A stretch of 64,000 nucleotides of DNA. It comes from Paracoccus methylovorus (GTDB lineage Bacteria; Pseudomonadota; Alphaproteobacteria; Rhodobacterales; Rhodobacteraceae). Under the pieces are notes generated by a model. That model was not told the DNA's origin and did not search any database. It saw only the letters and a list, made by a program, of their open reading frames with translations. Location of the stretch: contig NZ_CP070371.1 in assembly GCF_016919705.1 (NCBI RefSeq), forward strand, positions 959,501-1,023,500. The letters are read 5' to 3'. Each line of letters begins with the position of its first letter. Position 1 is the stretch's first letter. The position numbers and the translations under genes were made by a program. Positions 6,957-23,289 of the stretch are shown here, in pieces.

Positions 6957-8462
6957 CTAGTCGCGCCGCGGCCCTTTTCCCTCTGGTCGCGCTCCCTTTC
7001 CGGGGGCGCGACTTGTTTTTCCAAAGCCCGGCTTCGGGCCCGGTTTGCCCGCCGGCTTTCCCGAAGCCTTTCCGGGTTTGAAATCACGGGCCGGCTTGCC
7101 GTCGCCACGGGGCTTGAAGCCGCCCTCCCCGCGCGGCTTGAAGCTGCGCTCACCCTCGGTCGCCCTGCTCTTGAAAGCCGGCTTGCCTGCGCGCACGGGA
7201 CGGTCGCCGTCACGGCGCGTCTCATCCCTCGGTCCTTTGTTGAACGGCTTGTGCGCACCGCCGTGTGCGGCGGACTTGCCATTGCCGTCTTCGCGCCGCG
7301 CATAAGGCTTGCGGTCGCCGTCCTCGCGCTTGGCAAAGGGTTTGCGGTCACCTTCGGGGCGCTTGCCAAAGGGTTTGCGCTCGCCATCTTCGCGCCGCGC
7401 ATAAGGCTTGCGATCGCCGTCCTCGCGTTTGGCGAAGGGTTTGCGGTCACCTTCGGGGCGCTTGCCAAAGGGTTTGCGCTCGCCATCTTCGCGCCGCGCA
7501 TAAGGCTTGCGATCGCCGTCCTCGCGTTTGGCGAAGGGTTTGCGGTCACCTTCGGGGCGCTTGCCAAACGGCTTGCGTTCGCCGTCTTCGCGCCGCGCAT
7601 AAGGCTTGCGGTCGCCTTCTGCGCGGGGCGGGCGCGTATCGTCCTCGGCCGGCCTGGCAGAGCCGCGTTCGCGGAAACTGCGGGGTTTTTCTTCGACATC
7701 ACCGGTCAACAACCCGCCCAACTGATCGCGCAGCATCTTGCGCTTGACCTCGCGCACCTCGTTCGCCTCTAGCCCGGTCAGCTTGAACGGGCCATAGCCG
7801 ATGCGGATCAGCCGGTTCACGATCAGCCCGACATGGGACATGGCACGGCGGATCTCGCGGTTCCTGCCCTCGCGGATGCCGACGGTCAGCCAGGCGTTCG
7901 CCCCCTGCTGGCTGTCCAGATTGATTTCCATCGGGGCGAATTCCTCACCGTCGATGGTGACGCCGCGGCGCAGCGATGCAAAGGTCAGGTCGTTGGGCTG
8001 GCCGTTCACCCGCACACGATAGCGGCGCAGCCAGCCGGTGGTCGGCAATTCCAGCCGGCGCTTGAGTTCGCCGTCATTGGTCAGCAGCAGCAACCCTTCC
8101 GAATTCAGGTCCAGCCGACCCACGGTCATCACCCGCGGCAGATCGCGCGGCAGGGCGTCGAACACCGTCTGCCGCCCCTTTTCGTCCGAGGCCGAGGTCA
8201 CAAGCCCGATCGGTTTGTAATAAAGCCAAAGCCGGGTTTCCTGCGGCTCGTCCAGCGGCTTGCCATCGACGCGAATCTTGTCCGAGGTCAGCACGTCCAG
8301 CGCCGGGCTGTCGATCTTGGTGCCGTTCACCGACACGCGCCCTTCCAGGATCATGCGTTCGGCATCACGGCGCGAGGCCACGCCGGCACGGGCCATCACC
8401 TTGGCGATGCGTTCGGCCTTGGCGGCAATGGGTTTCGGGTTGGATTGGGGGGTGTCGGTCAT
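6957..8462 (-). CDS. rluB: RluB/RsuA-family rRNA pseudouridine synthase with repeat tail
   Basis: The N-terminal part has an S4 RNA-binding domain (ARAGVASRRDAERMILEGRV) and then the RsuA/RluB catalytic domain with GRLDLNSEGLLLLTNDG, which contains the catalytic aspartate. By family it should isomerise uridine in 23S (or 16S) rRNA, and RluB (position 2605) is the usual match. The start at 8462 has AAGGAG 8 bp upstream. The protein is about 501 residues, roughly twice the enzyme core. The extra C-terminal half is strongly basic and low-complexity and contains ten tandem 11-residue repeats. Such tails are often seen in alphaproteobacterial homologues and probably bind RNA. Confidence 0.88.
   Translation of the reverse strand: MTDTPQSNPKPIAAKAERIAKVMARAGVASRRDAERMILEGRVSVNGTKIDSPALDVLTSDKIRVDGKPLDEPQETRLWLYYKPIGLVTSASDEKGRQTVFDALPRDLPRVMTVGRLDLNSEGLLLLTNDGELKRRLELPTTGWLRRYRVRVNGQPNDLTFASLRRGVTIDGEEFAPMEINLDSQQGANAWLTVGIREGRNREIRRAMSHVGLIVNRLIRIGYGPFKLTGLEANEVREVKRKMLRDQLGGLLTGDVEEKPRSFRERGSARPAEDDTRPPRAEGDRKPYARREDGERKPFGKRPEGDRKPFAKREDGDRKPYARREDGERKPFGKRPEGDRKPFAKREDGDRKPYARREDGERKPFGKRPEGDRKPFAKREDGDRKPYARREDGNGKSAAHGGAHKPFNKGPRDETRRDGDRPVRAGKPAFKSRATEGERSFKPRGEGGFKPRGDGKPARDFKPGKASGKPAGKPGPKPGFGKTSRAPGKGARPEGKGPRRD
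7284..7613 (-). repeat. Ten tandem 33-bp units inside the pseudouridine synthase gene
   Basis: 330 bp consist of ten in-frame 33-bp units encoding variants of [DE]RKPxxxRxxG. They are arranged as a three-unit higher-order repeat of 99 bp (DRKPYARREDG, ERKPFGKRPEG, DRKPFAKREDG) present three times, plus one extra first unit. Neighbouring 99-bp units are almost identical at the DNA level, which indicates recent expansion. The region encodes residues about 284-393 of the protein. Confidence 0.9.
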
Positions 8463-8569
8463 AGCGATCTCCTTCGCATCCCTGCGGTGGCAAACGCGCA
8501 ATCTACGCTTAATGCATGAGGATGGAAAGCAGTTCTTGCGCGCAAGGCAAGCCCGCGCGAAAAGCGCGC

Positions 8570-9019
8570 ATGGTTTTCGCCTCGCATATGCCTGCCGCTC
8601 TTGAAGAAGCCCGCGCCGCCGCGCAGCGCGGAGAGGTGCCGGTCGGTGCCGTGCTGATCGGTGCTGACGGACATGTGCTGGCCCGGGCGGGCAATCGCAC
8701 GCGCGAACTGGCCGATCCCACGGCCCATGCCGAGATCCTGGCGATCCGGCAGGCCTGCGCGGCGGTCGGGTCCGAGCGGCTGCCCGGCGCGCGGCTGTGG
8801 GTGACGCTGGAACCCTGCCCGATGTGCGCCGCCGCCATCTCGGCCGCGCGGATCGCGGTGCTGTATTACGGCGCCGAGGATGCACGCATGGGCGGCGTGC
8901 GTCACGGTGCGCGAGTCTTTGACCATCCGCAATGTCACCACAGGCCGGAAATCATCGACGGCATTTCGGCGGAAGAATCGCGTCACTTGCTGCTGGAATT
9001 CTTTCAAGAAAGGCGCTGA
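8570..9019 (+). CDS. tadA: tRNA(adenine34) deaminase TadA
   Basis: The cytidine/deoxycytidylate deaminase fold is shown by TAHAEIL (zinc-binding His and catalytic Glu) and PCPMCAAAI (two zinc-binding cysteines). GEVPVGAV near the N terminus is typical of TadA. The enzyme converts A34 of tRNA-Arg(ACG) to inosine and is essential. The start was placed at 8570 (MVFASHM..., 149 residues) to match the family length. Upstream in-frame starts such as 8516 would add an atypical leader, and no start has a strong ribosome binding site. The gene is divergent from the pseudouridine synthase gene. Confidence 0.9.
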   Translation: MVFASHMPAALEEARAAAQRGEVPVGAVLIGADGHVLARAGNRTRELADPTAHAEILAIRQACAAVGSERLPGARLWVTLEPCPMCAAAISAARIAVLYYGAEDARMGGVRHGARVFDHPQCHHRPEIIDGISAEESRHLLLEFFQERR

Positions 9020-9115
9020 AACAAGTAATTCAGTGTCCCAAAACCGTTACGAAGAATGCTTGCGCCGCACCGCAGCATAGGTAGGATGCCGACCGAGCGA
9101 ACATGGGGGGACTGA

Positions 9116-12100
9116 ATGTTCCGTAAGATATTGGTAGCGAATCGTGGCGAGATTGCGATCCGTGTGATGCGGGCAGCGAACGAGCTTGGGAAGAAGACGG
9201 TCGCGGTCTATGCCGAGGAAGACAAGCTTAGCCTGCACCGCTTCAAGGCCGACGAGGCTTACCGCATCGGCGGCGGACTGGGGCCGGTCGCAGCCTATCT
9301 GAGCATCCCCGAGATCATCCGGGTGGCCAGGGAATCGGGCGCCGACGCGATCCATCCCGGCTACGGGCTTTTGTCGGAAAACCCCGATTTCGTCGATGCC
9401 TGCAACGCGGCGGGGATCACCTTTATCGGGCCCTCCGCGGACACCATGCGCGCGCTTGGCGACAAGGCCAGCGCCCGGCGCGTCGCCATCGAGGCCGGCG
9501 TTCCCGTCATCCCCGCCACCGAGGTGCTGGGCGAGGACATGGAGGCGATCAAGCGCGAGGCTGCCGAAGTCGGCTATCCCCTGATGCTGAAGGCCAGTTG
9601 GGGCGGCGGCGGTCGCGGCATGCGGCCGATCATGGGTCCGGACGAATTGCCCGAAAAGGTGCGCGAGGGCCGGCGCGAGGCCGAGGCCGCCTTTGGCAAT
9701 GGCGAGGGCTATCTGGAAAAGATGATCCTGCGCGCGCGCCACGTCGAGGTGCAGCTTCTGGGCGACAGCCACGGCGGGCTTTATCACCTTTATGAACGCG
9801 ACTGCACCGTGCAGCGCCGCAACCAGAAGGTCGTCGAGCGCGCGCCCGCCCCCTATCTGACCGAGGCGCAGCGCGCCGAGGTCTGCGAACTGGCGCTGAG
9901 GATCGGCTGCGCGGTAGGCTATCAGAACGCCGGCACCGTCGAATTCCTGATGGATATGGACAGCCAGCAGTTCTATTTCATCGAGGTGAACCCGCGCGTC
10001 CAGGTCGAGCACACCGTGACCGAAGAGGTCACCGGCATCGACATCGTGCAAAGCCAGATCATGATCGCAGAGGGCGCGACTCTGGCCGAGGCCACCGGCG
10101 TCCCTGCCCAAGAGGGCGTGCACCTGAACGGCCACGCCCTGCAATGCCGGGTGACGACCGAGGACCCGCTGAACAACTTCATCCCCGATTACGGCCGCAT
10201 CACCGCCTATCGCTCGGCCACCGGCAACGGCATCCGGCTGGACGGCGGCACCGCCTATTCCGGCGGCGTCATCACCCGCTATTACGACAGCCTGCTGGTC
10301 AAGGTCACCGCCCACGCCCAGACCCCGGAAAAGGCCATCGCCCGAATGGACCGGGCCTTGCGCGAATTCCGGGTGCGCGGCGTGGCGACGAATATCGAAT
10401 TCGTCATCAACCTGCTGAAACACCCGACCTTCCTCGATGACAGCTATACGACCAAGTTCATCGACACGACGCCGGGCCTGTTCGCCTTCCGCAAGCGCCG
10501 GGACCGGGCGACGAAGCTGTTGGTCTATATCGCCGACATCACCGTGAACGGCCACCCCGAGACGGCGGGTCGCCCGCTGCCTCCGGCCGAATTGCGCAAC
10601 CTCGTGGCGCCCGCGGCAAAGGCCGATCCTGCCGCACAGGCACTGCGGGGCACAACGCAGCTTCTGGAGGAAAACGGTGCCAAGGCCGTCGCCGACTGGA
10701 TGCTAGAGCAAAAGCGGCTCTTGATCACCGACACCTCGATGCGGGACGGGCACCAGTCGCTTCTGGCCACCCGGATGCGCTCGATCGACATGGTGCGTGT
10801 CGCGCCGGCCTATGCCGCGAACCTGCCGGGACTGTTCAGCGTCGAATGTTGGGGCGGCGCGACTTTCGACGTCGCCTATCGCTTCTTGCAGGAATGTCCC
10901 TGGCAGCGGCTGCGCGACATCCGTGCGCGCATGCCGAACCTGATGACGCAGATGCTGCTGCGGGCCAGCAACGGTGTCGGCTATACCAACTATCCCGACA
11001 ATGTGGTGCAAGAGTTCGTCCGTCAGGCGGCCAAGACCGGGGTCGACGTGTTCCGGGTCTTTGACAGCCTGAACTGGGTCGAGAACATGCGCGTCGCCAT
11101 GGATGCGGTGATCGAGTCGGGCAAGATCTGCGAAGGCACCATCTGCTATACCGGCGACCTGCTGGACCCGGCACGCGCGAAATACGACCTGCAATACTAC
11201 CTGAAGATGGCGCGCGAACTGCGCGACGCAGGCGCGCATGTGCTGGGGCTCAAGGACATGGCGGGACTGCTGAAGCCTGCCTCGGCCAGCATTCTCGTGC
11301 GGGCGCTGAAAGAGGAAATCGGTCTGCCGGTGCATTTCCATACCCATGACACGGGCGGCATCGCCGGAGCCTCGATCCTTGCGGCCGCCGCGGCGGGCGT
11401 CGATGCGGTCGATTGCGCCATGGACGCGTTCTCGGGCAATACCTCGCAACCCTGCCTGGGTTCGGTGGTCGAGGCGCTGCGCCACACCGATCGCGACACC
11501 GGGCTGGATATCAAGGCGATCCGCGAGATCTCGAACTACTGGGAAGCCGTGCGCGAACATTACGCCGCCTTCGAGAGCGGGTTGCAGGCCCCGGCATCCG
11601 AGGTCTGGCTGCACGAGATGCCCGGAGGCCAGTTCACCAACCTGAAAGCGCAGGCGCGCAGCCTGGGCCTTGAGGATCGCTGGCACGAGGTCGCCCAGGC
11701 CTATGCCGAGGTGAACCGGATGTTCGGCGATATCGTCAAGGTCACGCCCTCGTCCAAGGTGGTAGGCGACATGGCGCTGATGATGGTGGCGCAGGGCCTG
11801 ACACGTGCGCAGGTCGAGGACCCGAATGTCGAGGTGGCCTTCCCCGACTCGGTCGTGGACATGCTGAAGGGCAACCTTGGCCAGCCCCCCGGCGGCTGGC
11901 CCGAGGCGCTGCAACGCAAGGTGCTCAAGGGAGAGGCTCCGCTGACCACCCGCCCCGGCGCGGCGATGGCGCCCGTGGATCTGGAGGCCACGCGCGCCGA
12001 TGTGATCCGCCAGTTGGAAGGCAAGGCGGTGGATGACGAGGACCTGAACGGTTATCTGATGTATCCCAAGGTCTTTCTGGACTACATGGGCCGGCACCGC

Positions 12101-12562: not shown

Positions 12563-12937
12563 CGCCCTATTCAAACAGGGCGGCCCTGCTGCAAAAAAGC
12601 GACCGGGCCGCCAGACAAATTAATCATATCCATGATATGACACCGTCCTGACGGCCCAGCGGATAAAGATACCCGCAAAGTTCTTTTATACAATTTGGAC
12701 ATTATTCTTTCTTCATCGCCGCTGGTACCAAGAATTTTATTCTCAATACATGTCTTGCTGAATTTTTTGATCGCAAAGCCACCACCTCGATTCCATTGAT
12801 CCGACCGAGAGATTTCCGAGACCGCATATGGGTTCATTATCCCCGCCCCGGAAAACTTAGCTCCTAAAGACAGCGGTGGATATATGGACATATCGCATTA
12901 TTCCGTTGACGGAACGCAACCATGGCGCGAATATATC
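12563..12937. other. AT-rich gene-free region with a palindrome, upstream half of the hns promoter area
   Basis: About 375 bp are much richer in A+T than the neighbours and have no convincing gene. A short GC hairpin (CGCCCT...AGGGCG, 12563-12582) follows the pyc stop and may be a weak terminator. A near-perfect palindrome, TCATATC-CAT-GATATGA, lies at 12624-12640. The IS element next to it appears to have split an AT-rich stretch that continues at 13793-13937 up to the H-NS gene. Confidence 0.5.
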
Positions 12938-12939
12938 TA

Positions 12940-13790
12940 GGGCGTGTTGACAAAAGGGATTCACCGGGCGCGGTGATCGTGATTCAAGCTGGTATCTGCA
13001 ATGGAGACCAGCGTGGCACGAAACCTGATGTCGAACGACGAGTGGGCGTTCTTTGAACGCTTCATCCTGGCTGTCCGTTCTCCGAACGGCCGCAAGCCCA
13101 CGAACCATCGGCTTGTTCTGGATGGGATTTTCTGGATCGCCCGAACGGGGTCGCCCTGGCGCGACCTGCCGGAAGAGTTCGGCAAATGGTCGTCTGTCTA
13201 TCGGCAGTTCCGGCGCTGGACGTTGGCGGGGCTGTGGGAACAGATCCTGGAGGCGCTGAACGAGAGCCGGATCGTGCCGGATGCGCTGCAGATGATCGAC
13301 AGCACCGTGGTTCGCGCTCATCATCAGGCAGCGGGCGCAAAAGGGGGACTCCGCGCCAAGGTTTCGGCCGCTCGCGAGGTGGCTTCACGACCAAGATCCA
13401 TCTGCGGGTCAATGCGGCAGGCCTGCCCATGAGAACCGAGATCACGGCCGGGCAGACATCGGACTACCTCGGCTTCGATCTGGTCATGGCTGACAACCTG
13501 CCCGAGCCAAGCGTTCTGCTCGCAGACCGCGGCTACGACTCCGACAACATCCGCAAGACCATGGAGGTGCGCGACGTGGTGCCGGTCATCCCCATGCGCA
13601 AAACCCGGAAGCTACGGGTCGCCGTTGACCGCAGGCTCTACCGCCTGCGCAATCTCGTTGAGCGGTGCTTCAACAAGCTCAAGAATGCCCGTCGCGTCGC
13701 CACCCGCTACGACAAGACCGCCGAAAGCTTCCTGGGCTTCATCGACATCACGTCGATCCGCCTCTGGCTCCGCCATTTGTCAACATGACC
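12940..13790 (+). mobile_element. IS5-family insertion sequence (IS427-like), about 851 bp
   Basis: The imperfect terminal inverted repeats pair GGGCGTGTTGACAAA at the left with GGTCATGTTGACAAA (reverse complement of the right end). Together with the flanking C-TA-G on both sides, 16 of 18 positions match. The duplicated TA at 12938-12939 and 13791-13792 fits the short target duplication of IS427-group elements. One transposase gene in two overlapping frames fills the element. Confidence 0.85.
13001..13788 (+). CDS. IS5-family transposase made by -1 frameshift
   Basis: The first frame (13001-13432) encodes the N-terminal DUF4096-like part (WFxxGSPWRDLP-type motif, here TGSPWRDLP) and reaches the first catalytic aspartate in IDSTVVRAH. 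The second frame, -1 relative to it, continues from about 13340 to 13788 with GRSRGGFTTKIHL, LLADRGYDSD and RNLVERCFNKLK, which carry the rest of the DDE catalytic core. The frames meet at an A4G5 tract (13339-13347), a typical slippage site. Joining them there gives one continuous IS5-type transposase. No other lesion is visible, so the element may be active. Confidence 0.85.
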
Positions 13791-13937
13791 TAGTAGGGAA
13801 CGCATTGCATTAGTCTGCTGCAGAACAGCCCATCTTGAAACCCGCCGTGATTAATGGCTATTTCAAACAATCTGAGCGCCACATCGACCGGAATCGATAA
13901 TATGCCGATGTTGGATCGCCATCTTGAAAGGGCAAAA

Positions 13938-14249
13938 ATGAACGATCTTGATCTGAATGCAATGTCGCTGACCGAATTGAAGCAGTTGTTCAAGGATGTC
14001 GAAAAGGCAATTGACGGTTTTGAATCGCGCCGCAAAGCCGAAGCCCGTGCAAAAGCCGAGGAAGCCGCGAAACAATACGGCTATTCTCTGTCGCAATTGA
14101 TCGAGGCGGCAGCGCAACGGCCCGCGACTGCGCCGAAATATGCCCATCCCGAGAATCCCGAACTGACCTGGAGCGGGCGGGGCCGCAAACCGTCATGGAT
14201 CATCGAAGGGCTGGATGCCGGTAAATCTCTGGAAGATTTCGCCATCTGA
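13938..14249 (+). CDS. H-NS-family nucleoid protein (HvrA/Spb-like)
   Basis: The 103-residue protein has an N-terminal coiled-coil oligomerisation region (LKQLFKDVEKAIDGFESRRKAEAR...). Its C-terminal H-NS DNA-binding motif is HPENPELTWSGRGRKPSWI (about residues 70-90). Rhodobacter HvrA and Spb are the nearest named relatives; they bind curved AT-rich DNA and modulate photosynthesis or nitrogen genes. The start at 13938 was chosen because GAAAGGG lies just upstream and the preceding in-frame residues do not look like the family. An IS sits 148 bp upstream, so its native promoter region has been displaced or replaced. Confidence 0.88.
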   Translation: MNDLDLNAMSLTELKQLFKDVEKAIDGFESRRKAEARAKAEEAAKQYGYSLSQLIEAAAQRPATAPKYAHPENPELTWSGRGRKPSWIIEGLDAGKSLEDFAI

Positions 14250-14287: not shown

Positions 14288-14656
14288 CTAGACCTTTTCG
14301 CCATTCGCCCGGTCGAAGCGCGTCTGGGACGTATGGATCACGTCGATATTTGCCATCGCCCATTCGGCCAAGGCACAAACAGGTTTGCGCAGCGATTGAC
14401 CAAGCTGCGTCAGTTCATAATCCACCCGAGGCGGGATGCTGGGCGTTACGGTGCGCGACACCAGACCGTCACGTTCCAGCCCCCGCAAGGTCAGCGTCAG
14501 CATGCGCTGGGATATGCTGGGAATTTCGCGCCTCAACTCGCTGAACCGTTTAGGTCCGTCAGCCAGCACCGAAACAATCAGCAGGCTCCACTTGTCACCG
14601 ATCCGCTGAAGAACGGCCGTGAAGGCTCTGCATCCAAAGCTGTCGGGGTCATGCAT
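14288..14656 (-). CDS. HxlR-family transcriptional regulator
   Basis: This 122-residue winged-helix protein has the family core [24 protein letters not shown] and [19 protein letters not shown]. One cysteine near the N terminus (FGCRAF) is at the position typical of redox- or quinone-sensing HxlR regulators. The start at 14656 has GGAG 8 bp upstream. It is transcribed divergently from an azoreductase gene, an arrangement usual for HxlR regulators that control their neighbour in response to quinones or electrophiles. A perfect palindrome lies between the two start codons. Confidence 0.85.
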
Positions 14657-14677
14657 GCGGTTTCTCCGGTTCCCTTG

Positions 14678-14694
14678 CTGTGACCAAGTCACAG
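14678..14694. promoter_or_regulatory. Perfect palindrome, candidate HxlR operator
   Basis: CTGTGAC-CAA-GTCACAG has 7-bp arms and a 3-bp centre. It lies 22 bp upstream of the HxlR start codon in the divergent promoter region. A second inverted repeat, GGCACA-N4-TGTGCC, follows at 14707-14722. A third element, TACT-N11-AGTA (14748-14766), of the kind bound by YodB/CatR-type HxlR regulators, lies just ahead of the azoreductase gene. Confidence 0.6.
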
Positions 14695-14791
14695 CCATGT
14701 AAGTGTGGCACAGGATTGTGCCTTCTTGCGGTCGGTTCCGCATTGGTTACTTAAGCATCCTCAGTATATATTCCATACCAAGGAGACAAGA

Positions 14792-15340
14792 GTGACCATC
14801 CTGCATATCGACAGCAGCATCACCGGCGATAACAGCGTAAGCCGCATCGTCAGCCAGGCAATCATCGACAGGCTCTCGGCCGCGCAACCCGGGGTCGGTG
14901 TCGTCCGTCGCGATCTGGCCAGCGAGCCTTTGCCGCATCTGACGCTGGATGCGCTTGCCGACACCTCGGTGCTGGATCAGTTTCTGGCCGCCGATACGGT
15001 CGTGATCGGTGCGCCGATGTATAATTTCACCCTGCCCAGCCAGCTCAAGGCATGGATCGACCGCGTTCTCGTGGCCGGAAAGACCTTTCGCTATACGGCT
15101 GAAGGTCCCGAGGGCCTTGCCAGCGGCAAGCGCGTGATCATCGCCTTGGCGCGCGGCGGTTTTTACAGCGAGAATCCCGCCGTCGCGCTGGAGCATCTGG
15201 AGACCTATCTGCGTTCGGTCTTTGGTTTTATCGGCATCACGCCAGAATTCGTGACGGCCGATGGATTGAGCATTGGGCCCGAGCAGCGGCAGGTGGCAAT
15301 CGATCAGGCACTTGGCCAGACGCAGCATCTTGCCGCGTAA
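14792..15340 (+). CDS. azoR: FMN-dependent NADH-azoreductase
   Basis: The 182-residue flavodoxin-like fold protein of the AzoR/AcpD family has the early motif ILHIDSS and the FMN-site segment [20 protein letters not shown], followed by LARGG. It should use NADH to reduce azo compounds and quinones, the latter being the likely physiological role. I chose the GTG at 14792, which has AAGGAG 6 bp upstream and begins exactly at the conserved beta-strand. An ATG further upstream would add 29 unlikely residues. The divergent HxlR gene and the palindromes between them suggest quinone-responsive control. Confidence 0.92.
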
Positions 15341-15425: not shown

Positions 15426-16595
15426 TCAGGACAGGCGTTTTATTGCGGGCCAGTAATCGATCAGCCACAGCAGAAACGCTGCTGCCCACAGGATGGCCGC
15501 GACCAGATGCAGGGGACCGGGTGGCCATGGCATCAAGCCCATCTCGGGCAGCGCGCGCAGTAAAACAGCCGCCGCAGCCAACACGAACGCCAACCGGGTC
15601 GCAAGGCTCAGGCCAAGCCCCTGTCCGGTATGGAACCGCCCGGCAATAGCCAGTACCGCCAGCACGCCCAGCCCCAGCCCGCCCATCAGCGCCAGATGCA
15701 GCGGCCCGGCCTCGGCCCACGGGGCACCTAGCGCCGAGGCCCCCAGCGTCAGCAATCCGACCCCCGGAAAACCCGCCGCCGCCATCAGCACCATGATCTC
15801 GGCGCGGAACGCCTCGGGACCGACGAACCCTTCGGCCATGCGGTCCATATAGGCGGCCCCGGCAGCGATCCAAAGAAATCCCCCGACCGAGGGCGACAGG
15901 CCGGCCACTTGTCCCATCAAGGCCAGCGCCACCAGACCGGCCGACAGATGCAACCGGCCCGGATGCGGCCGAAAGGGCGAGGTTCTTTCACTGGGGTCCA
16001 GCACGATATTGGTCACCGGCACGGTGATGCGCGCCAGAACAAGACCCAGCAGGCCCAGAAACAGCAGACCCGAGATCCGCAGCCACTCTGTCGCCGTCTC
16101 GACCTGTCCCGCCAGCATTGCCATGCGCGCCATCAGGCAGGCCAGCGTCAGGGCGAAAAGCCATCCCACAAAACTAAGCACCCGGGTCGTGCGCTGCTCG
16201 ATCGACAGTTTCAGCAGATAGGTGACCAGCAGGACCAACCACGCCAGATCGGCCAGCATCGCCAGCAGGATCAGCCCGTCGGCCCCCAGAAGCCCCGCAA
16301 CCCGCGCCAGCGCCCAAAGCGCGGCCAGCCCCCAAAGCGCCCCTCCACGCAGGCGGGGCGAGTCGGTCCATTCCGGCGCGGCTGTTGTCAGGAACCCCAA
16401 AAGGGCCGCACCCCACGCCCCGAAAATCATCTCGTTGGCGTGCCAGATCCCCGGGGGAATCCGCTGTGCCAAAGGCAGGTCAAAAGACCACAACGCCACC
16501 CAGACCAGCGGCCACAACGCGGCATGAAGCGCGGTCAGCGGAAAGAACAGGCGAAAGCCTTCGTCGGAAAGCACGCGATGCAAAGGGGGCTTCAT
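15426..16595 (-). CDS. nnrS: NnrS family membrane protein
   Basis: This 389-residue, roughly 12-segment inner-membrane protein has the NnrS-type start FRLFFPLTALHAALWPLVW and the segment WHANEMIFGAWGAALLGFLTTAAPEWTDSP, with conserved histidine. NnrS proteins are haem- and copper-containing membrane proteins made during denitrification that help cells tolerate nitric oxide; their exact chemistry is not settled. It overlaps the preceding ATPase gene by 4 bp and is the last gene of a same-strand series from the Rrf2 regulator. That ties the ABC transporter ahead of it to NO or nitrogen-oxide metabolism. Confidence 0.9.
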   Translation of the reverse strand: MKPPLHRVLSDEGFRLFFPLTALHAALWPLVWVALWSFDLPLAQRIPPGIWHANEMIFGAWGAALLGFLTTAAPEWTDSPRLRGGALWGLAALWALARVAGLLGADGLILLAMLADLAWLVLLVTYLLKLSIEQRTTRVLSFVGWLFALTLACLMARMAMLAGQVETATEWLRISGLLFLGLLGLVLARITVPVTNIVLDPSERTSPFRPHPGRLHLSAGLVALALMGQVAGLSPSVGGFLWIAAGAAYMDRMAEGFVGPEAFRAEIMVLMAAAGFPGVGLLTLGASALGAPWAEAGPLHLALMGGLGLGVLAVLAIAGRFHTGQGLGLSLATRLAFVLAAAAVLLRALPEMGLMPWPPGPLHLVAAILWAAAFLLWLIDYWPAIKRLS

Positions 16596-17341
16596 GGGCG
16601 CAGCCGTTCGTCGATGTCGTGGATATGCGCAAACAGCGGATCGGCGGTCAGGTAATGCTGGCGCAAGGCGAAGATCGCATTCTCGTCTCGGGAGCCCGGA
16701 CTGCCGGGGGGTATCTGCTCGCCCGCAACGCCGCGTCCGTTGGGATCCAGCACAAGGATCCGATGGCTGATGCGGATTGCCTCCAGCAAGTCATGGGTGA
16801 TGAACAGCGCCGCGAAACTGGCCGTCGCGGCTGCCTCGATCACCAGATCCTGCATCCGGCGTTTCAGCGCGACGTCCAGCGCCGTAAACGGCTCGTCGAA
16901 ATAGATGAAGTCCGGGTTCGTCACCAGCGCGCGGGCGATGGCGGCCCGCTGACGCATGCCGCCGGATAATTCCGAGGGGTATTTCTCCATATCCTCGGGC
17001 AACAGCCCGGCGCGCAGCGCGGCATCGGTGATCATTTGGCCCCGCATCCGGCGCGGCGCACGCGACAGGCGCAGCGGAAAGCCGATATTGCCGGCGGCAG
17101 TGGCCCAAGGCATCAGGCGCGGGTCCTGAAAGATCATCGCGTGGCGATGATAGCGGCGTAATATCCGCCCCTCTCGCGGCTCGACCAGCCCGGCAGCGAT
17201 ATGGGCCAGCGTCGATTTACCCGAACCTGACGGCCCGACCAGCGCCACGATCTCCTGACGCGCGACGCTGAGCGTGATCCCCTCCAGCACGGTGCGGCCA
17301 AAGAACGAATGACCGATCCGGTTCAGTTCCAGCAGGCTCAT
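16592..17341 (-). CDS. NitT/TauT-type ABC transporter ATP-binding protein
   Basis: The 249-residue ATPase has Walker A GPSGSGKST (about residues 36-44), signature LSGGMRQR and Walker B FIYFDEPF, matching the SsuB/TauB/NrtD group. It would power the importer formed with the permease encoded directly upstream; the two genes overlap by 4 bp. The start also overlaps, and the stop overlaps the start of nnrS, so the whole series is tightly coupled. The substrate cannot be read from the ATPase. Confidence 0.9.
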   Translation of the reverse strand: MSLLELNRIGHSFFGRTVLEGITLSVARQEIVALVGPSGSGKSTLAHIAAGLVEPREGRILRRYHRHAMIFQDPRLMPWATAAGNIGFPLRLSRAPRRMRGQMITDAALRAGLLPEDMEKYPSELSGGMRQRAAIARALVTNPDFIYFDEPFTALDVALKRRMQDLVIEAAATASFAALFITHDLLEAIRISHRILVLDPNGRGVAGEQIPPGSPGSRDENAIFALRQHYLTADPLFAHIHDIDERLRP

Positions 17342-18156
17342 CGCTTGACGCCCCAGGGTGCGGCGGCCTCGCGCCAGCGTTCCAGTTCGGCCCTGACCGG
17401 GCGGATCAGGATATATTCGACTACGATCAATGCAGCCACGGCCAGGCTGACCCAGGCCAGCGCCTCGGCGATGTCCAGCATGGCGCGCGCCCGCGCCAGC
17501 GCCCCGCCGATTCCCCCGGCATTGGCCAGAAGCTCGGCCATGATCGCCACCTTGAAGGCCGAGCCAAGCGCAAGGATCAGCGCCGGGAACAGTTGCGCCG
17601 AGATTTGCCGCGCCGAGACATACAGGAACCGCCGCAGCGGCCCGGCGCCGAAAACCTGCGCCATGTCATCAAGGCCGCGGTCGCGCGTCGTCACGCCCTC
17701 GACCGCGCCGACAAAGACCACCGGCGTCGATGAGATCAGGATCGTCACAGCCACGGTCATGTCCGACGCGCCGAACCAGATCATCGCCAGCACGATCCAG
17801 GCGATGGGCGGCACGCCCAAAAGCAGGGTCAGGATCGGACGCGACAGCCGCAGCACGGCCGGAGAGTAGCCCGCCACCACGCCGGCCAGCGTGCCGATCA
17901 CCGCGCAAAGCGCAAAGCCGGTCAGTGCCCGCGCAGTCGTGAGTGCCAGCAACTCTTGTGCCTGTCCTTCGCGCAAAAGCCGTGTCGCCGCTTTCATGGT
18001 GTCCAGCGGCGCGGTCAGGATGAAATCGCCATAAGCTTCGTGCCCGGCCTGCCAGACGGCCGCGATCAGGGCCAAACCCGCCAGCCCGGCCCAGGCCGAC
18101 CACAGAAACCGGCCCAGCCGGGCCAAGCGGTCAAGACATGCCGCAAGCCAATTCAC
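17338..18156 (-). CDS. NitT/TauT-type ABC transporter permease
   Basis: The 272-residue inner-membrane protein has about six membrane segments. A BPD_transp_1 (SsuC/TauC-like) region with an EAA-type loop lies around residues 180-220 (DMAQVFGAGPLRRFLYVSARQISAQLFPAL). It overlaps both neighbours by 4 bp. Its partners are the ATPase at 16592-17341 and the binding protein at 18153-19148, so the importer is complete. Substrates known for this permease family include sulfonates, nitrate, thiamine precursors and pyrimidines, so the actual ligand remains open. Confidence 0.88.
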   Translation of the reverse strand: MNWLAACLDRLARLGRFLWSAWAGLAGLALIAAVWQAGHEAYGDFILTAPLDTMKAATRLLREGQAQELLALTTARALTGFALCAVIGTLAGVVAGYSPAVLRLSRPILTLLLGVPPIAWIVLAMIWFGASDMTVAVTILISSTPVVFVGAVEGVTTRDRGLDDMAQVFGAGPLRRFLYVSARQISAQLFPALILALGSAFKVAIMAELLANAGGIGGALARARAMLDIAEALAWVSLAVAALIVVEYILIRPVRAELERWREAAAPWGVKR

Positions 18157-19148
18157 AGCAGATAGAACCCATCGTCAGGCAATTTGCCGCCGATGATCGC
18201 CACATCTGTTTCGGCCATCAGGGAAAGGATCGCCTCGACCGCGGGTCGTGCCTCGGATGCGGGACGGACGGCCAGCCGGGAATGTGGCACCGACAGCGCC
18301 AGAACCGGCGCAGGCATGTCCAAAGGTCCGGCGGCTGCGGTCGCGGCTTGCACCGGATCGGCCAGAACCTCTTCGTTGGCGCGCGCAAGCGCGGCCTGCA
18401 AAGGGGCCAGCAGTTCGGCGCCATTGGTCATGAAGGCCTTGGTCGCCGCCAGCCCGGCCTGCGGCAGCACCGGCCCGACTGTGCCATGCCTGCCCCATTC
18501 CTCTTGCAGGTCGATCACCCGGGCAAAGCTTTTGCCCGCCATCCCGCCCCGCATGATGGCGACGCTGGAGGCCGGCTCGCTGAGCAGCGCCGCGTCGATC
18601 TGGCCGGCAAGCAGCATCTGCGCAGCCTCGATGGGGCTGCCGACCGGAAGCAGTTGGACCTTATCCGCGATGCCATGCCGCGCCAGCAGCGCGCGCAGCA
18701 CGAAATCGGGGGTGTCGTTGACAAAAGGCAGCGCCACGCGCCGACCTTCCAGCGCGGGGAAATCCGCGGCCGTACCGGTCTCGGCCACGATGAACAAAAG
18801 CCCGTCGGTCATGGTGTTGACCAGCCCCAGCCCCATGCCGCGATTGTAGAGGTTCGCGGCGACCTGAACCGGCACGACCGACAGGTCTATCGTGCCCGAG
18901 GTCAGCCCGGCACGCAGCTCATCCGGGGTGCGCCAGACGGTCAGCGACACATCGTCCGACAGCTCCTTCAGCGCGCCGCTGGCAACGGCATGGGCCAAGG
19001 TGATGCTGGGGCCGGCGGGTGGTCCAAACAGCGCCAACCGCGCAAGCGGTGCTGCGCGCAGGGTGCGGGGCGCTGCCAGCGTGACGGCCAAGGCGCCCGC
19101 CCCGGCAAGCAAGGCGCGGCGCGAGGGATGGCAAAGGGAATGGGACAT
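18153..19148 (-). CDS. ABC transporter substrate-binding protein (NitT/TauT-like, Tat signal)
   Basis: This 331-residue periplasmic binding protein begins with a twin-arginine signal (HPSRRALLAGAGALAV, then ALA-type cleavage near residue 30). The fold is the NMT1/TauA type, recognisable from LFGPPAGPSITLAHAVASGAL, a middle GTIDLSVVP and IDAALLSEP. The Tat signal is unusual for a simple binding protein and hints at folding, or cofactor loading, before export. The start at 19148 has AGGAGGG 6 bp upstream. A near-consensus FNR/NNR box lies about 95 bp upstream, so this gene may begin its own transcript. The ligand is unknown. Confidence 0.85.
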   Translation of the reverse strand: MSHSLCHPSRRALLAGAGALAVTLAAPRTLRAAPLARLALFGPPAGPSITLAHAVASGALKELSDDVSLTVWRTPDELRAGLTSGTIDLSVVPVQVAANLYNRGMGLGLVNTMTDGLLFIVAETGTAADFPALEGRRVALPFVNDTPDFVLRALLARHGIADKVQLLPVGSPIEAAQMLLAGQIDAALLSEPASSVAIMRGGMAGKSFARVIDLQEEWGRHGTVGPVLPQAGLAATKAFMTNGAELLAPLQAALARANEEVLADPVQAATAAAGPLDMPAPVLALSVPHSRLAVRPASEARPAVEAILSLMAETDVAIIGGKLPDDGFYLL

Positions 19149-19207
19149 GGCTGCCCTCCTGACGATCAAAAGGTAGGACGGGATGGCTGGCACAAGGCTG
19201 GCTTAGT

Positions 19208-19256
19208 TGACAAAGTCTTATGGCGTGAGAAAGCGCTCTTCTTTGATTTTGATCAG
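19208..19256 (-). promoter_or_regulatory. FNR/NNR-type promoter upstream of the ABC-nnrS genes
   Basis: On the minus strand, CTGAT-CAAA-ATCAA (19256-19243) matches the FNR/NNR consensus TTGAT-N4-ATCAA at 9 of 10 positions. A TATAAT-like CATAAG follows at 19222-19217. The 20-bp gap puts the box within 2 bp of the standard class II activator position. The binding protein gene starts at 19148. The box overlaps the stop codon of the preceding DUF1971 gene. Confidence 0.6.
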
Positions 19257-19558
19257 GTCCTTGGCGGTGAATCGCCCGGCCGGACGCAAAACTCGACAAA
19301 AAAGCGCACCGAGCCAAGGATTGCAACCTCGTGCAACCGCTGCGGATGGATCAGCGGATGAATCCCCGGCTCCAGCACCAGTTCGGCCCCATCGATCAGA
19401 TCGCGAAAGATCAGCCGCCCGTCCAGCACATGCAGCCGCGCCCAGGTTTTGTCCCGCGTGGAATGGGCGCGTAGCAGGCCTTTGGGCACGGTGGTCTCGT
19501 CGAATTCCGGCGTGCGCCGATAAGGGACGGCATCAACGGGCCAGTCCGGGCGTTTCAT
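19253..19558 (-). CDS. DUF1971 (YeaR/TehB-N-like) protein
   Basis: The 101-residue protein matches the DUF1971 pattern (VPYRRTPEFDETTVPKGLL, then a cupin-like core ending in HPLIHPQRLHEVAILG...FFVEF). It has the usual length for a stand-alone YeaR-like protein. In enterobacteria yeaR is induced by nitrate and nitric oxide, and its molecular function is not established. The gene overlaps the preceding CGHSCP-motif gene by 4 bp, so it is coupled to the regulator side of the block. It is separated by 104 bp and an FNR-type box from the ABC genes. Confidence 0.8.
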   Translation of the reverse strand: MKRPDWPVDAVPYRRTPEFDETTVPKGLLRAHSTRDKTWARLHVLDGRLIFRDLIDGAELVLEPGIHPLIHPQRLHEVAILGSVRFFVEFCVRPGDSPPRT

Positions 19559-20175
19559 GCCACCGGCCAGTCGTAAAGATGGATCAGCTTGGGATCATCC
19601 GCCGCCGCGAACATCCGTCGGACACGATCCTGAAACAGCTCTGAAAAACGGGCCTGCTGGGCCTTGTCGGCAAGCCCTTGCACGGCCCGCGACATCAAAT
19701 CGGCCATGGCAGGATCATGCGGAACGTAGCCGGTGTCGATATCGACGACCACGCCTGCGCCGCTGTCGCGCCGGCGCAAGCCCATGATACCATCGACGGG
19801 CGCCTCGAACCGCAATAGCCCGCGACGCGAGAACAGATGCCTCGCGCCAATGCCGTGAAAGCCGCCCTCGGCCGCCGCACCCGTCACCAACCCCGCGACC
19901 GAGGCAGTCACGCCGGTTGTGCCCTGTGTCGCCCCATCGCGCATGTGAACCTCGATACCGCCACGTTCGGGCAGATCGCCGCCATAAAGCCATTCAAGGC
20001 CGGCCAGAACCATCAGCCATGCGCCGGCGACCACGGGACAGGAGTGACCGCAAAGCCGCACGGCATCCTGATAGCGATAGGTCAGCGCCCCGTCCTCGAC
20101 CGAGCCGAGAAAGCCCGCCAGCGGATCGTGGACCCGGACCTGTGGCGCATCGTCAAAGAACGCGGGGAAATTCAT
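19555..20175 (-). CDS. Conserved protein with CGHSCP motif, possibly FmdE-like
   Basis: I do not recognise this 206-residue protein with certainty. It has a CGHSCP motif at about residues 42-47 followed by a glycine/alanine-rich helix. This resembles the GHxCPG signature of the FmdE family, which is found next to molybdenum formylmethanofuran dehydrogenase and in various metal-related proteins. No signal peptide is present, so it is probably cytoplasmic. It begins 3 bp after the Rrf2 stop and overlaps the DUF1971 gene. The two cysteines and histidine could bind a metal or sense NO. The FmdE link is an inference from one motif. Confidence 0.55.
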   Translation of the reverse strand: MNFPAFFDDAPQVRVHDPLAGFLGSVEDGALTYRYQDAVRLCGHSCPVVAGAWLMVLAGLEWLYGGDLPERGGIEVHMRDGATQGTTGVTASVAGLVTGAAAEGGFHGIGARHLFSRRGLLRFEAPVDGIMGLRRRDSGAGVVVDIDTGYVPHDPAMADLMSRAVQGLADKAQQARFSELFQDRVRRMFAAADDPKLIHLYDWPVA

Positions 20176-20178
20176 CGC

Positions 20179-20586
20179 CTACTCCTGTCCATCTGCCAGC
20201 AGGTCGGCCAGCGTGCGGTGGTCCATCACTTGCAAAAACGCGCCAAGCGCGTCCCTGATCGCCGCGTCCAGCGCGCCGGGGCGGTTGGGATCGCGGATTT
20301 CCTCGGGGCCGAAACATTCGGCCGCGGCCATGTCCGGCTCGGTCACGCGCAGCACTTCGCCCAAGGGCAACGAAACCGGGTCGCGCCCCAGTTCCAGCCC
20401 GCCCGAGCGCCCGCGAACCGAATTCAGAAACCCCGCCCGCGTCAGCACGTTGGCCACCTTGGTCAGATGGCTGCGCGAGATATCATAGGCCGCCGCCGCC
20501 TCTTCGATGGTCACCAGCCGGTCGGGATGCCGCGCCGCATAGATCAGCAGGCGCAGGGCATAGTCTGAAAAGCTGGTCAGTCGCAT
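20179..20586 (-). CDS. Rrf2-family regulator, NsrR-like but with only one cysteine
   Basis: The 135-residue Rrf2 winged-helix protein starts MRLTSFSDYALRLLIYAA and has the recognition region ISRSHLTKVANVLTRAGFL. This is closest in pattern to NsrR, the [2Fe-2S]/[4Fe-4S] NO sensor. NsrR uses three cysteines near residues 90-103. Here only the first is present (AAAECFG); the second and third positions read Glu and Arg, and the protein contains no other cysteine. The start at 20586 has AAGGAAG upstream. It heads the tight gene series 20586-19253. Either it binds no cluster, uses a different ligand set, or has lost NO sensing. Confidence 0.85.
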   Translation of the reverse strand: MRLTSFSDYALRLLIYAARHPDRLVTIEEAAAAYDISRSHLTKVANVLTRAGFLNSVRGRSGGLELGRDPVSLPLGEVLRVTEPDMAAAECFGPEEIRDPNRPGALDAAIRDALGAFLQVMDHRTLADLLADGQE

Positions 20587-20612
20587 GAACACGGCTTCCT
20601 TGATCCGCCCGC

Positions 20613-20654
20613 AAAAAAAGCATGGCGCGCGCCAGATGGTCAATGGCGCACGCC
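20613..20654 (-). terminator. Intrinsic-terminator-like hairpin 27 bp before the Rrf2 gene
   Basis: On the minus strand an 11-bp stem GGCGTGCGCCA/TGGCGCGCGCC (one G-U pair, 9-nt loop) is followed 4 nt later by T7. It lies 79 bp after the TonB receptor stop and 27 bp before the Rrf2 ATG. It may simply end the receptor transcript, or it may act as an attenuator for read-through into the regulator genes, since little room is left for a separate promoter. Confidence 0.7.
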
Positions 20655-20732
20655 GGGATAGTGACCGCCCGGCCCGCCGTCACGGCAAATGACAAGCCAG
20701 ACGGCACGGTTCGGGCAAGTGCGGCCCCGTCA

Positions 20733-22952
20733 TCAGAACCGCAGCCGGGTGCCCAGATAGAAGGCCCGCCCCTCTCCCGGGATAAAGGCCGCCTGCCCGG
20801 CCGAAGCCTGATCCACGACCAGCGTCGAGGCTGCATAGCGTTCATCCGTCAGGTTGGTGACCTGAACATGGACCGAGGCGTTCGGGGTCAGCGCATATTC
20901 GGCCCCCAGATCGACCAGTGCATAAGACTCGTTGAAGACCGTGTTCATGTTGTCCACCGGCGTCTCTCCCGGCACCCAATGCAGCTTGCCGCTGATGGTC
21001 AGGCGCTCGACCGGGCGCCAGTCCAGCGCAAGCGAGATCACGTTGCGGGGGGCGCCGGCGATGCGGTTGTCGCCACGCACCGGGTCGTTGTCAAAGCGGA
21101 AATCCTGCCATGTCCATGCCAGCCGCCCCGACAGCGTCTCAGTCAACTCGCCCGACAGGCCAAGCTCGACCCCGGTATGGAGCGTGCGCCCGGCGTTGAC
21201 CGAGGCCAGCGTGGCGCCGGTCACATCGCGCAGGGACAGGAGTTCGTTGTTCAGCCGCGAATGATAGGCGGTCGCGTCCCATGACAGTGGCTGCCATGTC
21301 CCGCGCCAGCCCAGTTCCAGCGTGGTCGAGGTCTGCGCCTTCAGATCGGGTGTAGCGAACATGGCCGCCGGGACGGTCGGATCGGCGGGGTTCGGCCGGC
21401 CCGGCCCACTGTTCGGCGTGCCGCCCACCGTGCCCAGCAGGTCGTCATGGGTCGGCGGCTCGAACCCGCGCGACAGCGAGACCCAGGCGAATTGCCCCTC
21501 GGCCGGGGCCCAGGACAGCGCCAGCGCGGGCGTGAAGCCGCTATAGCTGCGATCGTAGCTGGTCGAGCCCGCCGGCACCGCGCCGTCAGGCAGGCGCATA
21601 TCGGGGAACATCGGGTGATAGGCCACCGTGGGCCGGGTCGCCGCGCCCCAGCGGTCCTCGCTTTCCCGATTGGCATGGTTGAACGCGATCGAGGGCGACA
21701 GGGTAAAACCGCCCACCGGCAGATTTGCCCCGGCAAAGATCGACAGGGTATCGGCCTTCAGCCGGTTCCTGCCAAAGGCCGGACCGCGCTCTCCGCCCAG
21801 ATTGTGGAAATAGTCGCGGTCAGCCTCGCCAAAGGACCACGTCAGACCGGTCTCGAACAAAGGCAGATCGCCCTCGCCCATACGGCTGTAGCGGGCGGTG
21901 ACCGTCGCGTCGGTGCTGTCGGTGTCACGGAAGCCCGCAGAGATCGGGAAGGCGAATGTGTCCTTGGTATGCGACAGGCTTACGCCAAGGTCATAGATGT
22001 CCGCGCCGCGCTCCAGCGTCGTGCGGGCGCCGGCCAGCGTCTGGCGCGTGTCGCGTCGCGGCTGGTCGCGCCATACGTTCGGTCCCGGCCCGACCGGCAC
22101 GCCCCCGACGATCACAGGGCCCGAGTGGTTGCTTTCGGGGTTGTTCTGGATCGCATCCCAGGTCAGCGGCCCGGCCACGTCGAATTCCAGATCGGTGTGG
22201 CTTAGAAACAGCCGCGTTACCGCCTCGCCCGTCTGCAGCGTGACATTGCCGCCGATCGCCGTCCGGCGCGAGCTGTTGTAATCGCGATAGCCGTCCTTTT
22301 GCGTATGCTCAAAGCGCAGCAGGACATCGGCATTCTCGGTGTCGATGCCATAGCTGCCCGCAACCTCGCCCCGCCCGAAACTGCCGCCACCGAACGAGAG
22401 CCGCGTGCCCGGCGCCGACGCCCCCGAGGGCGACGCAAAGTTGATCGCTCCGCCCAACACGTTCGCGCCGATGCGGTTGGCGGAGGCACCCCGGAACACC
22501 TCGATACTTTCCGCCTGTCCGGGCGCAGCAAGGCCAACCACATAAGACCCGTCGGCGCGATTCACCGGCATCCCGTCCTGCAACACGAGAAGGCCGCGTT
22601 CCGCCGGGTTCTGTTGCAGGCCCGAGCCACGGATCTGGATGCGCGGCTGGTCGTTGCCGCCAAAGAATTCCTGCACCACGACGCCGGGCACCTGCGACAG
22701 CGTATCGGCCAGCGTCGGCGCGGCCTGTCCCTGCGCCTCGCTGCGGTCGATCAGTGTCGCCGCGCCGGGCGTCACCTCAAAGCGTCTTGCGGTGGTATCG
22801 GCGCGGACCTCGATCTCATCCAGGATAATGACCGCGCCGGGGGCCGCCGATTGCGCCAGGGCGACGCCTGCTTGCAGGGACAGGCCCGCGGCCAGCCCGG
22901 TCAGGACGGGGGCCATCCGGGGAAAGGGTTTGATCTTGTTGTCAGCGTCCAT
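20733..22952 (-). CDS. TonB-dependent outer-membrane receptor
   Basis: This 739-residue outer-membrane receptor has a signal peptide ending near ALAQS. Its plug domain is recognisable from LADTLSQVPGVVVQEF, IQIRGSGLQQ and VFRGASANRIGANVLGGAINF. The long beta-barrel ends in an aromatic-containing strand (FYLGTRLRF). It is FecA/ferric-siderophore-receptor-like in pattern, but such receptors also carry vitamin B12, haem, copper chelates and other ligands. The start at 22952 has AAGGA about 10 bp upstream. It lies on the same strand and directly upstream of the Rrf2-ABC-nnrS genes, which suggests it could feed the ABC importer. Confidence 0.88.
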   Translation of the reverse strand: MDADNKIKPFPRMAPVLTGLAAGLSLQAGVALAQSAAPGAVIILDEIEVRADTTARRFEVTPGAATLIDRSEAQGQAAPTLADTLSQVPGVVVQEFFGGNDQPRIQIRGSGLQQNPAERGLLVLQDGMPVNRADGSYVVGLAAPGQAESIEVFRGASANRIGANVLGGAINFASPSGASAPGTRLSFGGGSFGRGEVAGSYGIDTENADVLLRFEHTQKDGYRDYNSSRRTAIGGNVTLQTGEAVTRLFLSHTDLEFDVAGPLTWDAIQNNPESNHSGPVIVGGVPVGPGPNVWRDQPRRDTRQTLAGARTTLERGADIYDLGVSLSHTKDTFAFPISAGFRDTDSTDATVTARYSRMGEGDLPLFETGLTWSFGEADRDYFHNLGGERGPAFGRNRLKADTLSIFAGANLPVGGFTLSPSIAFNHANRESEDRWGAATRPTVAYHPMFPDMRLPDGAVPAGSTSYDRSYSGFTPALALSWAPAEGQFAWVSLSRGFEPPTHDDLLGTVGGTPNSGPGRPNPADPTVPAAMFATPDLKAQTSTTLELGWRGTWQPLSWDATAYHSRLNNELLSLRDVTGATLASVNAGRTLHTGVELGLSGELTETLSGRLAWTWQDFRFDNDPVRGDNRIAGAPRNVISLALDWRPVERLTISGKLHWVPGETPVDNMNTVFNESYALVDLGAEYALTPNASVHVQVTNLTDERYAASTLVVDQASAGQAAFIPGEGRAFYLGTRLRF

Positions 22953-23289
22953 GTAGGCACATCCTTCAGTTTCCCCGACGGGAAAGTGCGACCGGCGATG
23001 CGGCGCGCGGGTGTCAATGAGGAGGCTGGCGACATGGCTTGCTACGGCATATCGGCGGCTGGAACGCCCAAGCCGACATGACAGCGCCTGCATAGGCGAA
23101 TCAAACATGAATACGAAGGTCACATTTTAGACTGCGCGCTTTTGACGCAGTCACATACAGCCGGCAGACCGTTCGCACTAGCGGCGTCGATGCCCAACCC
23201 GGTGCTGGACAGCAGGATTGCCGGCAAGCTAGACACGGGAGGCAAGCACAGCGATCAGTTCAAGCGCGAAAGACGGAAAGCCACATCCC
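22953..23289. promoter_or_regulatory. Divergent promoter region with GACTGCG-N9-CGCAGTC inverted repeat
   Basis: This 337-bp gap separates the TonB receptor gene from the SorC-type regulator gene. A perfect 7-bp-arm inverted repeat, GACTGCG at 23130-23136 and CGCAGTC at 23146-23152, lies about 180 bp upstream of the receptor start. No known Fur, Irr or cobalamin riboswitch pattern was found here, and there is no gene. Confidence 0.35.

Follow-up and report, generated by a model that had tools for sequence, protein, structure and literature searches.

The window, a stretch of 64,000 nucleotides from Paracoccus methylovorus (contig NZ_CP070371.1), carries a block of eight genes in which an ATP-binding cassette (ABC) importer of the NitT/TauT type, with its substrate-binding protein (SBP), is packed against an nnrS gene. 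The host genome is 4.38 Mb in size, and it contains two more nnrS genes besides the one in the block, which lies on contig C4. The genes of the block, and a conserved upstream site, are as follows:

23108..23122, minus strand: TGACCTTCGTATTCA (TGA-N9-TCA), part of a stretch preceding the receptor gene that is conserved in five Paracoccus sequences
20733..22952, minus strand: TonB-dependent receptor of a distant PqqU/siderophore type (the ATG at 22952 is the best-fitting start)
20179..20586, minus strand: Rrf2 regulator in which one of three NsrR-type cysteines is present (the ATG at 20586 is the best-fitting start)
19555..20175, minus strand: FmdE-like protein with a CGHSCP motif and an FmdE fold
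19253..19558, minus strand: DUF1971 protein (Pfam)
18153..19148, minus strand: SBP (ATG at 19148; by eye, a twin-arginine signal-like start, SRRALLAG)
17338..18156, minus strand: ABC permease (GTG start)
16592..17341, minus strand: ABC ATPase of the NitT/TauT type
15426..16595, minus strand: nnrS of an importer-linked subfamily (H52, H300, and H322 kept; N54 and M271 in place of histidine)

The original prediction of eight same-strand genes with these coordinates and this spacing was confirmed by gene calls and Pfam. Overlaps of 4 bp join the FmdE-like and DUF1971 genes, the SBP and permease genes, the permease and ATPase genes, and the ATPase gene and nnrS; the remaining gaps are 146 bp (receptor to Rrf2), 3 bp (Rrf2 to FmdE-like), and 104 bp (DUF1971 to SBP). 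Pfam scores exceed the cut-offs for NnrS (PF05940; 246.7 vs. 28 bits), DUF1971 (PF09313; 71 vs. 23.1 bits), Rrf2 (95.8 vs. 30 bits), and both the plug (56.9 bits) and the TonB barrel (156.9 bits) of the receptor; the ATPase was assigned to ABC_tran, the permease to BPD_transp_1, and the SBP to NMT1-like proteins (it reaches the NMT1/NMT1_2 scores and has the NitT/TauT binding-protein fold). The nearest named relatives are in Paracoccus (82-86% identity in the FmdE-like protein), and P. ferrooxidans has all eight genes, in unchanged order, on a replicon of 1.46 Mb.

We surveyed other genomes with three anchors: the FmdE-like protein, the SBP in a phylum and a genus sample of genomes, and the SBP in a plasmid collection. 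Our own gene calling was crude and dropped some overlapping genes, and annotation tables served as a check. For the FmdE-like anchor, the best 80 of at least 497 confirmed relatives plus the window gave 81 loci; within 6 kb of the anchor gene there was a TonB receptor in 20, NnrS in 16, the permease in 15, Rrf2 in 14, the SBP in 13, and DUF1971 in 12. Of the 13 SBP-containing loci, 12 also have NnrS within this distance; L027, the one that does not, has the poorest match to the SBP. The phylum sample contained the SBP in 10 of 398 genomes (11 loci), with NnrS adjoining the importer in eight of the 11 (all except L113, L117, and L118). Among 121 Paracoccus genomes, 11 contain the SBP, in 12 loci, and NnrS adjoins the importer in 11 of these; the best SBP locus of every positive genome has NnrS, and a second locus in G767 does not. 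The plasmid collection yielded 58 records matching the window SBP and 68 matching the SBP of L057 (a Pseudomonadota metagenome-assembled genome), many of them from strains of one species; we viewed 24 regions, and in 16 of them NnrS is in the same gene group as the SBP. These 16, among which Campylobacterota are represented, are from Paracoccus, Cereibacter, Martelella, Azospirillum, Chelatococcus, Allorhizobium, Rhizobium, Shinella, two Agrobacterium, Sulfurimonas (whose SBP gene is divergent from the other three genes of the unit), Aliarcobacter, Nitratiruptor, Arcobacter, Bartonella, and Neisseria; the eight without NnrS comprise two Diaphorobacter, Pseudomonas nitroreducens, and five distant matches (<28% identity). 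Importer homologues thus do not rarely neighbour nnrS elsewhere, and the predicted recurrence of the importer-nnrS combination is borne out; since the arrangement is conserved in these counts across other genomes, it is more than chance, and the coupling of the importer to NnrS is supported.

The original prediction had also treated the eight genes as one system, and this holds for only part of the block. The constant core is the SBP, the permease, the ATPase, and NnrS, closely packed, while the receptor, Rrf2, FmdE-like, and DUF1971 genes are accessory and come and go. The ATPase gene and nnrS overlap or are at most 5 bp apart in 13 of 14 intact annotated loci, a count that leaves out L172 (a broken-up ATPase) and L176 (no annotation); the exception is L173, with 50 bp. 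As for the accessory genes, the importer and receptor genes in Bosea are oriented away from Rrf2-FmdE-DUF1971, the FmdE-like gene follows nnrS in Comamonas, and in Paracoccus one locus (L122) has none of the four and another (L121) has a remnant of the Rrf2 and FmdE-like genes. The FmdE-like protein was matched in only three of 295 genomes of the window's family (its own genome and two marginal matches), which makes the complete block of eight genes rare in this sample.

The NnrS proteins beside the importer form a distinct subfamily, as judged from a tree of 65 rows, 25 of them labelled as linked (the near-duplicate loci L119, L120, L127, and L128 were left out). The linked label requires three changes on this tree, against 20.2 in shuffles, and a branch with an SH-aLRT value of 93 (by a quick method) sets 23 of the 25 linked rows apart from every canonical row; the only other row on their side, L052, also has the importer ATPase upstream. 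The remaining two linked-labelled rows are L110_3821, the second NnrS of a tandem pair whose upstream member is the linked one, and L114, which is placed at the edge of the group. For the histidine counts the labels were corrected (L110_3821 to other, L052 to linked), which gave 25 linked and 40 other proteins; the latter comprise the top 30 NnrS by score from the phylum search, two paralogues from the host genome, seven from FmdE-anchored loci, and L110_3821. Histidine occurs at alignment columns 188, 190, 426, 456, and 478 in 40, 40, 39, 40, and 38 of the 40 others (the choice of the 30 by best score may exaggerate their uniformity), and in 25, 12, 0, 25, and 25 of the 25 linked proteins; that is, the column 426 histidine is absent from all linked NnrS and the column 190 histidine is lost in 13. 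The window NnrS reads H52, N54, M271, H300, and H322 in our alignment, with no histidine at two of the five near-invariant positions. The positions of H52, H300, R189, and R347 are common to all 65 rows, and that of H322 to 63. Because of the missing histidines, one metal site has probably been lost in linked NnrS. The family assignment in the original prediction therefore stands by its Pfam score, although this is not a typical member of the NO-tied (NO, nitric oxide) family; and since linked NnrS lacks the canonical histidines, there is no evidence here for the suggestion that the system builds or repairs an NO-handling NnrS. The third nnrS of the host genome (G000:C2:58425-59501, L003) has an arginine in place of the last conserved histidine.

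These data bear on the explanation that the importer and nnrS are bystanders that travel together only through denitrification clusters on islands and plasmids. Several of the loci are indeed plasmid- or chromid-borne, with nor, nap, or ubi genes around them, and the unit is patchy, being found in 11 of 121 Paracoccus and 10 of 398 phylum genomes; but neither the packing of the ATPase gene against nnrS in 13 of 14 loci nor the restriction of linked NnrS to one subfamily with a shared histidine loss, rather than a random draw, is expected from co-travel, and we regard it as highly improbable.

The setting of the unit is consistent with nitrogen-oxide respiration. Near NnrS-linked units there are NO reductase genes accompanied by hemerythrin and NnrU genes, as well as nap genes and Crp/Fnr genes; for example, L110 has NnrU with COX3-type and cytochrome c-type genes resembling norEF and norC, and in Bosea a copper oxidase resembling NirK, a DUF2249 protein, and a Crp/Fnr protein are near the unit. 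Importer loci that lack NnrS contain Crp/Fnr genes and a COX1 or ccoN gene. NirS (called as PF02239 with a best E-value below 1e-130) is present in 44 of the 121 Paracoccus genomes; all 11 SBP-positive genomes have NirS, as compared with 33 of the 110 SBP-negative ones (p = 6e-6), and all 11 have NosZ, as compared with 46 of 110 (p = 1.4e-4), in statistics that ignore shared ancestry. Separately, in L177 (Paraclostridium; positions 189-10675) a distant relative of the importer is found near Crp/Fnr, two cupins, hemerythrin, ferredoxin, and hcp, without NnrS; in Gram-positive bacteria as well, the importer might serve nitrogen-oxide metabolism.

We also searched the upstream regions for regulatory boxes, using the NnrR consensus as it appears in an excerpt of PMC1274295. 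Strict FNR/NnrR-type boxes were found in four of 40 regions, where shuffled sequences gave a mean of 0.16 and none of 500 shuffles was as high; this comparison is post hoc, since the L111 box was already known and the pattern was tightened and eight regions were added after a first look (two of the four hits are in the added regions). The boxes are at -75 in Shinella, -76 in Agrobacterium, -21 in L111, and -72 in Aliarcobacter. The letters of the Agrobacterium box are those of the Bradyrhizobium diazoefficiens nosR box in PMC6710368. Looser boxes, TTGCTCTACGTCAA in L163 and L173 and TTGAGCAGGATCAA in L009, were left uncounted. A candidate in the window, CTGATCAAAATCAA at 19243-19256, was rejected: it has one mismatch and is not kept in P. 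denitrificans or P. versutus, and three sites like it were found in the 64-kb window against one expected. The TGA-N9-TCA pattern of TGACCTTCGTATTCA occurs in seven of 32 upstream regions, where 1.3 would be expected; four of these regions are from Paracoccus and two from near-identical rhizobia. The pattern fits the RirA/IRO dyad and may be an operator of that type. Taken together, the neighbours, the genome content, and the FNR/NnrR-type upstream boxes support the predicted tie to nitrogen-oxide respiration.

As to what is imported, the receptor and the SBP give partial indications. Of 11 receptors aligned to that of the window, 10 share 48-75% identity with it (from Bosea, Enterovirga, Paracoccus, Cereibacter, Azospirillum, Shinella, Agrobacterium, and Bartonella) and one, at a locus without NnrS, shares 35%; in Alphaproteobacteria the receptor is often of one family. 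PqqU is the closest solved receptor, and PqqT is among the closest solved binding proteins, and these structures suggest the import of pyrroloquinoline quinone (PQQ) or a PQQ-like quinone cofactor. The window receptor scores only 109 against the cut-off of 1200 for the PqqU model (NF041535), however, and of the PqqU ligand residues named in an excerpt of PMC12124388 (Y99, R304, and R365) it keeps one in our alignment, the equivalents of Y99 and R304 being absent. With two of these three key residues missing, PQQ import seems to us improbable.

NitT/TauT importers often take up nitrate, nitrite, or some other small anion containing nitrogen or sulfur. Such anions pass porins, though, and TonB receptors accompany the unit in many loci; moreover, the block contains no assimilation or sulfonatase enzyme, and the SBP scores far under the cut-offs for SsuA (46 vs. 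163.5) and for the taurine SBP (22 vs. 304). We consider the import of such an anion highly improbable.

The neighbours point in another direction. The Cereibacter unit has hutW, hutX, FeoA, and a ChuX-like gene nearby, with two TonB receptors beside it, and other loci have, one each, a repressor with ferritin and imelysin, ChaN with PepSY, an iron ABC permease, or pseudoazurin; from these varied iron, heme, and copper neighbours, a metal chelate or a tetrapyrrole is favoured as the ligand. No cysteine, histidine, or methionine is found in the invariant and near-invariant columns of the binding-protein alignments. A narrower version of this, which overlaps our preferred explanation, is that heme or another tetrapyrrole is imported for the heme-rich denitrification enzymes and that linked NnrS accepts the heme. 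Besides the Cereibacter hut and ChuX-like genes, it draws on the receptors of L111, L114, L168, and one of L159, which score best with TonB-hemin (below its cut-off), on small proteins in two Arcobacteraceae loci that match UPF0093 (also below cut-off), on the three histidines kept in 25 of 25 linked NnrS, and on Diaphorobacter HDW4A, where the SBP gene adjoins cobN and two TonB genes and no permease, ATPase, or NnrS is annotated. But the window receptor is not of the hemin type (116 bits, against 173.5 bits for TonB-siderophor), the known ligands of the named fold neighbours of the SBP are small organic or inorganic molecules according to the structure titles, and there is no heme gene in the window block, so that heme import as such is unlikely, if less so than PQQ. 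At three loci a barrel gene adjoins an SBP gene of the linked type (L109 8255-10213, L113 6017-7903, and L116 8462-10381); the best model is the TonB copper receptor (178-195 bits, below the cut-off of 472), the matches start at model positions 126-140, and the Pfam scan found no plug in L113 and L116, so these are possible plugless receptors. Like the receptors that score best with TonB-hemin, these barrels add to the case for a metal or heme ligand.

The accessory proteins depart from their named relatives. The window Rrf2 has one cysteine, and its best curated matches, RirA (NF008886; 104.4 vs. 193) and NsrR (NF008240; 94.3 vs. 182), both fall short of the cut-offs. NsrR carries three cluster cysteines; having one of the three, the window protein is not a standard NsrR and is unlikely to detect NO by way of an NsrR-type cluster. 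Among the 14 Rrf2 proteins within 6 kb of FmdE-like genes, six have at least three cysteines in an NsrR-like place, and the other eight, including that of the window, have one. The FmdE-like protein shows the FmdE core fold, with a PF02663 score (20.1) below the cut-off of 22.9. Matched by eye to the metal-ligand motif FHGHxC, as given in a portion of PMC2954224, its C43-G-H44-S-C46 keeps two of the three His-x-His-x-Cys ligands; the first histidine is replaced by cysteine, and mostly by alanine in relatives. A profile of the protein also gave a weak match in the PDB to the C-domain of acetyl-CoA synthase alpha (E-value 0.037), over the stretch LPE..GI..RD...G..ASVATL.TGA..GF.GIG; acetyl-CoA synthase alpha is not among the fold matches listed (the best 50 of 94, and 50 in a second comparison).

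Several FmdE-like genes were seen in other company. L113 (8902-9720) has, directly after an SBP gene, an FmdE-like protein with a signal-like N-terminus and a GHVCP motif, possibly an exported FmdE. In five Neisseria loci (L037, L039, L045, L048, and L052) the FmdE-like gene is with FecCD-type permeases (Pfam-checked in L045 only); four of the five carry a TonB receptor of one cluster, and L052 has both the FecCD-type set and the tail of the NnrS-linked importer. In L021, L064, L079, and L081 the FmdE-like gene adjoins, or is one gene from, a DUF2249 gene, and the importer treated here is not within 6 kb.

What is observed, then, is that the SBP, permease, and ATPase genes keep closely together with the gene of a distinct NnrS subfamily, and that denitrification genes are often present at the same loci or elsewhere in the same genomes. 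On balance we favour its being a cofactor-uptake system used during nitrogen-oxide respiration, with a metal chelate or metallated tetrapyrrole as the likely ligand. The receptor would carry a scarce ligand, most likely an iron or copper chelate or a metallated tetrapyrrole, across the outer membrane; the binding protein, going by what its family does, would pass it to the ABC importer and so into the cytoplasm; and linked NnrS, made together with the ATPase, would receive or process it at the inner membrane rather than act as an ordinary NO-linked NnrS. For linked NnrS, we infer joint action with the importer from the way the genes stay packed together and from the change in its sequence; its handling of the ligand is a guess. 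The FmdE-like, DUF1971, and Rrf2 proteins would be accessory parts that handle or sense the ligand, whose supply would limit the heme and copper enzymes when NO is made. A stronger and rather doubtful form is that linked NnrS has given up NO protection and now belongs to the transporter itself, as a dedicated membrane part that accepts or processes the incoming metal cofactor and is produced in step with the ATPase; the uptake complex would come into use when Alphaproteobacteria, Betaproteobacteria, and Campylobacterota respire nitrogen oxides.

A number of results weigh against the cofactor-uptake explanation. Related SBPs without an adjoining NnrS occur in L166, L171, L180, L113, L117, L118, and the second G767 locus, as well as in five more distant relatives, and the link is one-way, since NnrS is in 169 of 299 phylum genomes and the SBP in only 10 of 398. 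The window block has no convincing NnrR box, CTGATCAAAATCAA being the only one and not conserved, and the shared ancestry noted for the NirS and NosZ statistics applies here as well. Receptor types vary by locus, and none reaches a curated ligand-specific cut-off save one Neisseria receptor (L037), which passes that for TonB-siderophore (430 vs. 223.5) and adjoins another importer type. Each metal or heme neighbour is a single case, with the gene differing from species to species, and no ligand of the importer was identified in the present analysis.

Beyond the block, an HxlR-type regulator (Pfam), divergent from another gene, adjoins nnrS at 14288-15340; the P. ferrooxidans counterpart of that other gene is annotated as an FMN-dependent NADH-azoreductase. 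Just downstream of the block, at 12857-13788, there are by eye transposase-like open reading frames in two overlapping frames, around which the G+C fraction drops to 0.57-0.59, and the small protein at 13854-14249 resembles H-NS-type proteins.

We know of no settled molecular function for NnrS, and a subfamily tied to one importer is a direct handle on it: once the ligand is found, the role of the linked NnrS becomes testable. If the cofactor-uptake explanation is true, denitrifiers would be seen to need a nutrient or metal whose supply may limit their heme and copper reductases, and hence N2O release; if linked NnrS is a transport component, canonical NnrS would share an ancestral cofactor-handling role. 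NnrS has long been associated with NO (PMC1274295, PMC9409073). There is no description of the importer-NnrS unit among the literature matches listed, and an earlier one in subscription papers is possible; nor did the literature search give a record pairing FmdE, or DUF1971, with NnrS.

Compared with known systems, each part has a recognizable relative. Canonical NnrS is a heme-copper membrane protein of NO and denitrification regulons; the window type is of the same Pfam family and shares the H52, H300, R189, and R347 positions, but forms a separate subfamily, with the histidine loss at columns 426 and 190 and an ABC importer as its partner. The FmdE-like protein differs from FmdE (PF02663) in its score below the Pfam cut-off, in having no cysteines left for the zinc-finger domain, and in its different gene company. 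NsrR and RirA provide the best curated matches of the window Rrf2, which lies under both cut-offs with one of three cysteines. Of the PQQ uptake proteins, PqqU (YncD) is the nearest receptor of solved structure and the periplasmic PqqT is among the nearest binding proteins, whereas the window system is under the equivalog cut-off, lacks equivalents of Y99 and R304, and has NnrS as a partner. The NitT/TauT importers (SsuA, TauA, NrtA, and CmpA) share the binding-protein fold and the permease and ATPase families; the window-type SBP has its own conserved positions (GP.A..S, W..PD, EP, PQAG, and IGG..P..F), and the system has TonB receptor and NnrS partners. The recurrence of the four-gene unit in a range of other bacteria points to an uptake system of which the literature matches listed contain no description.

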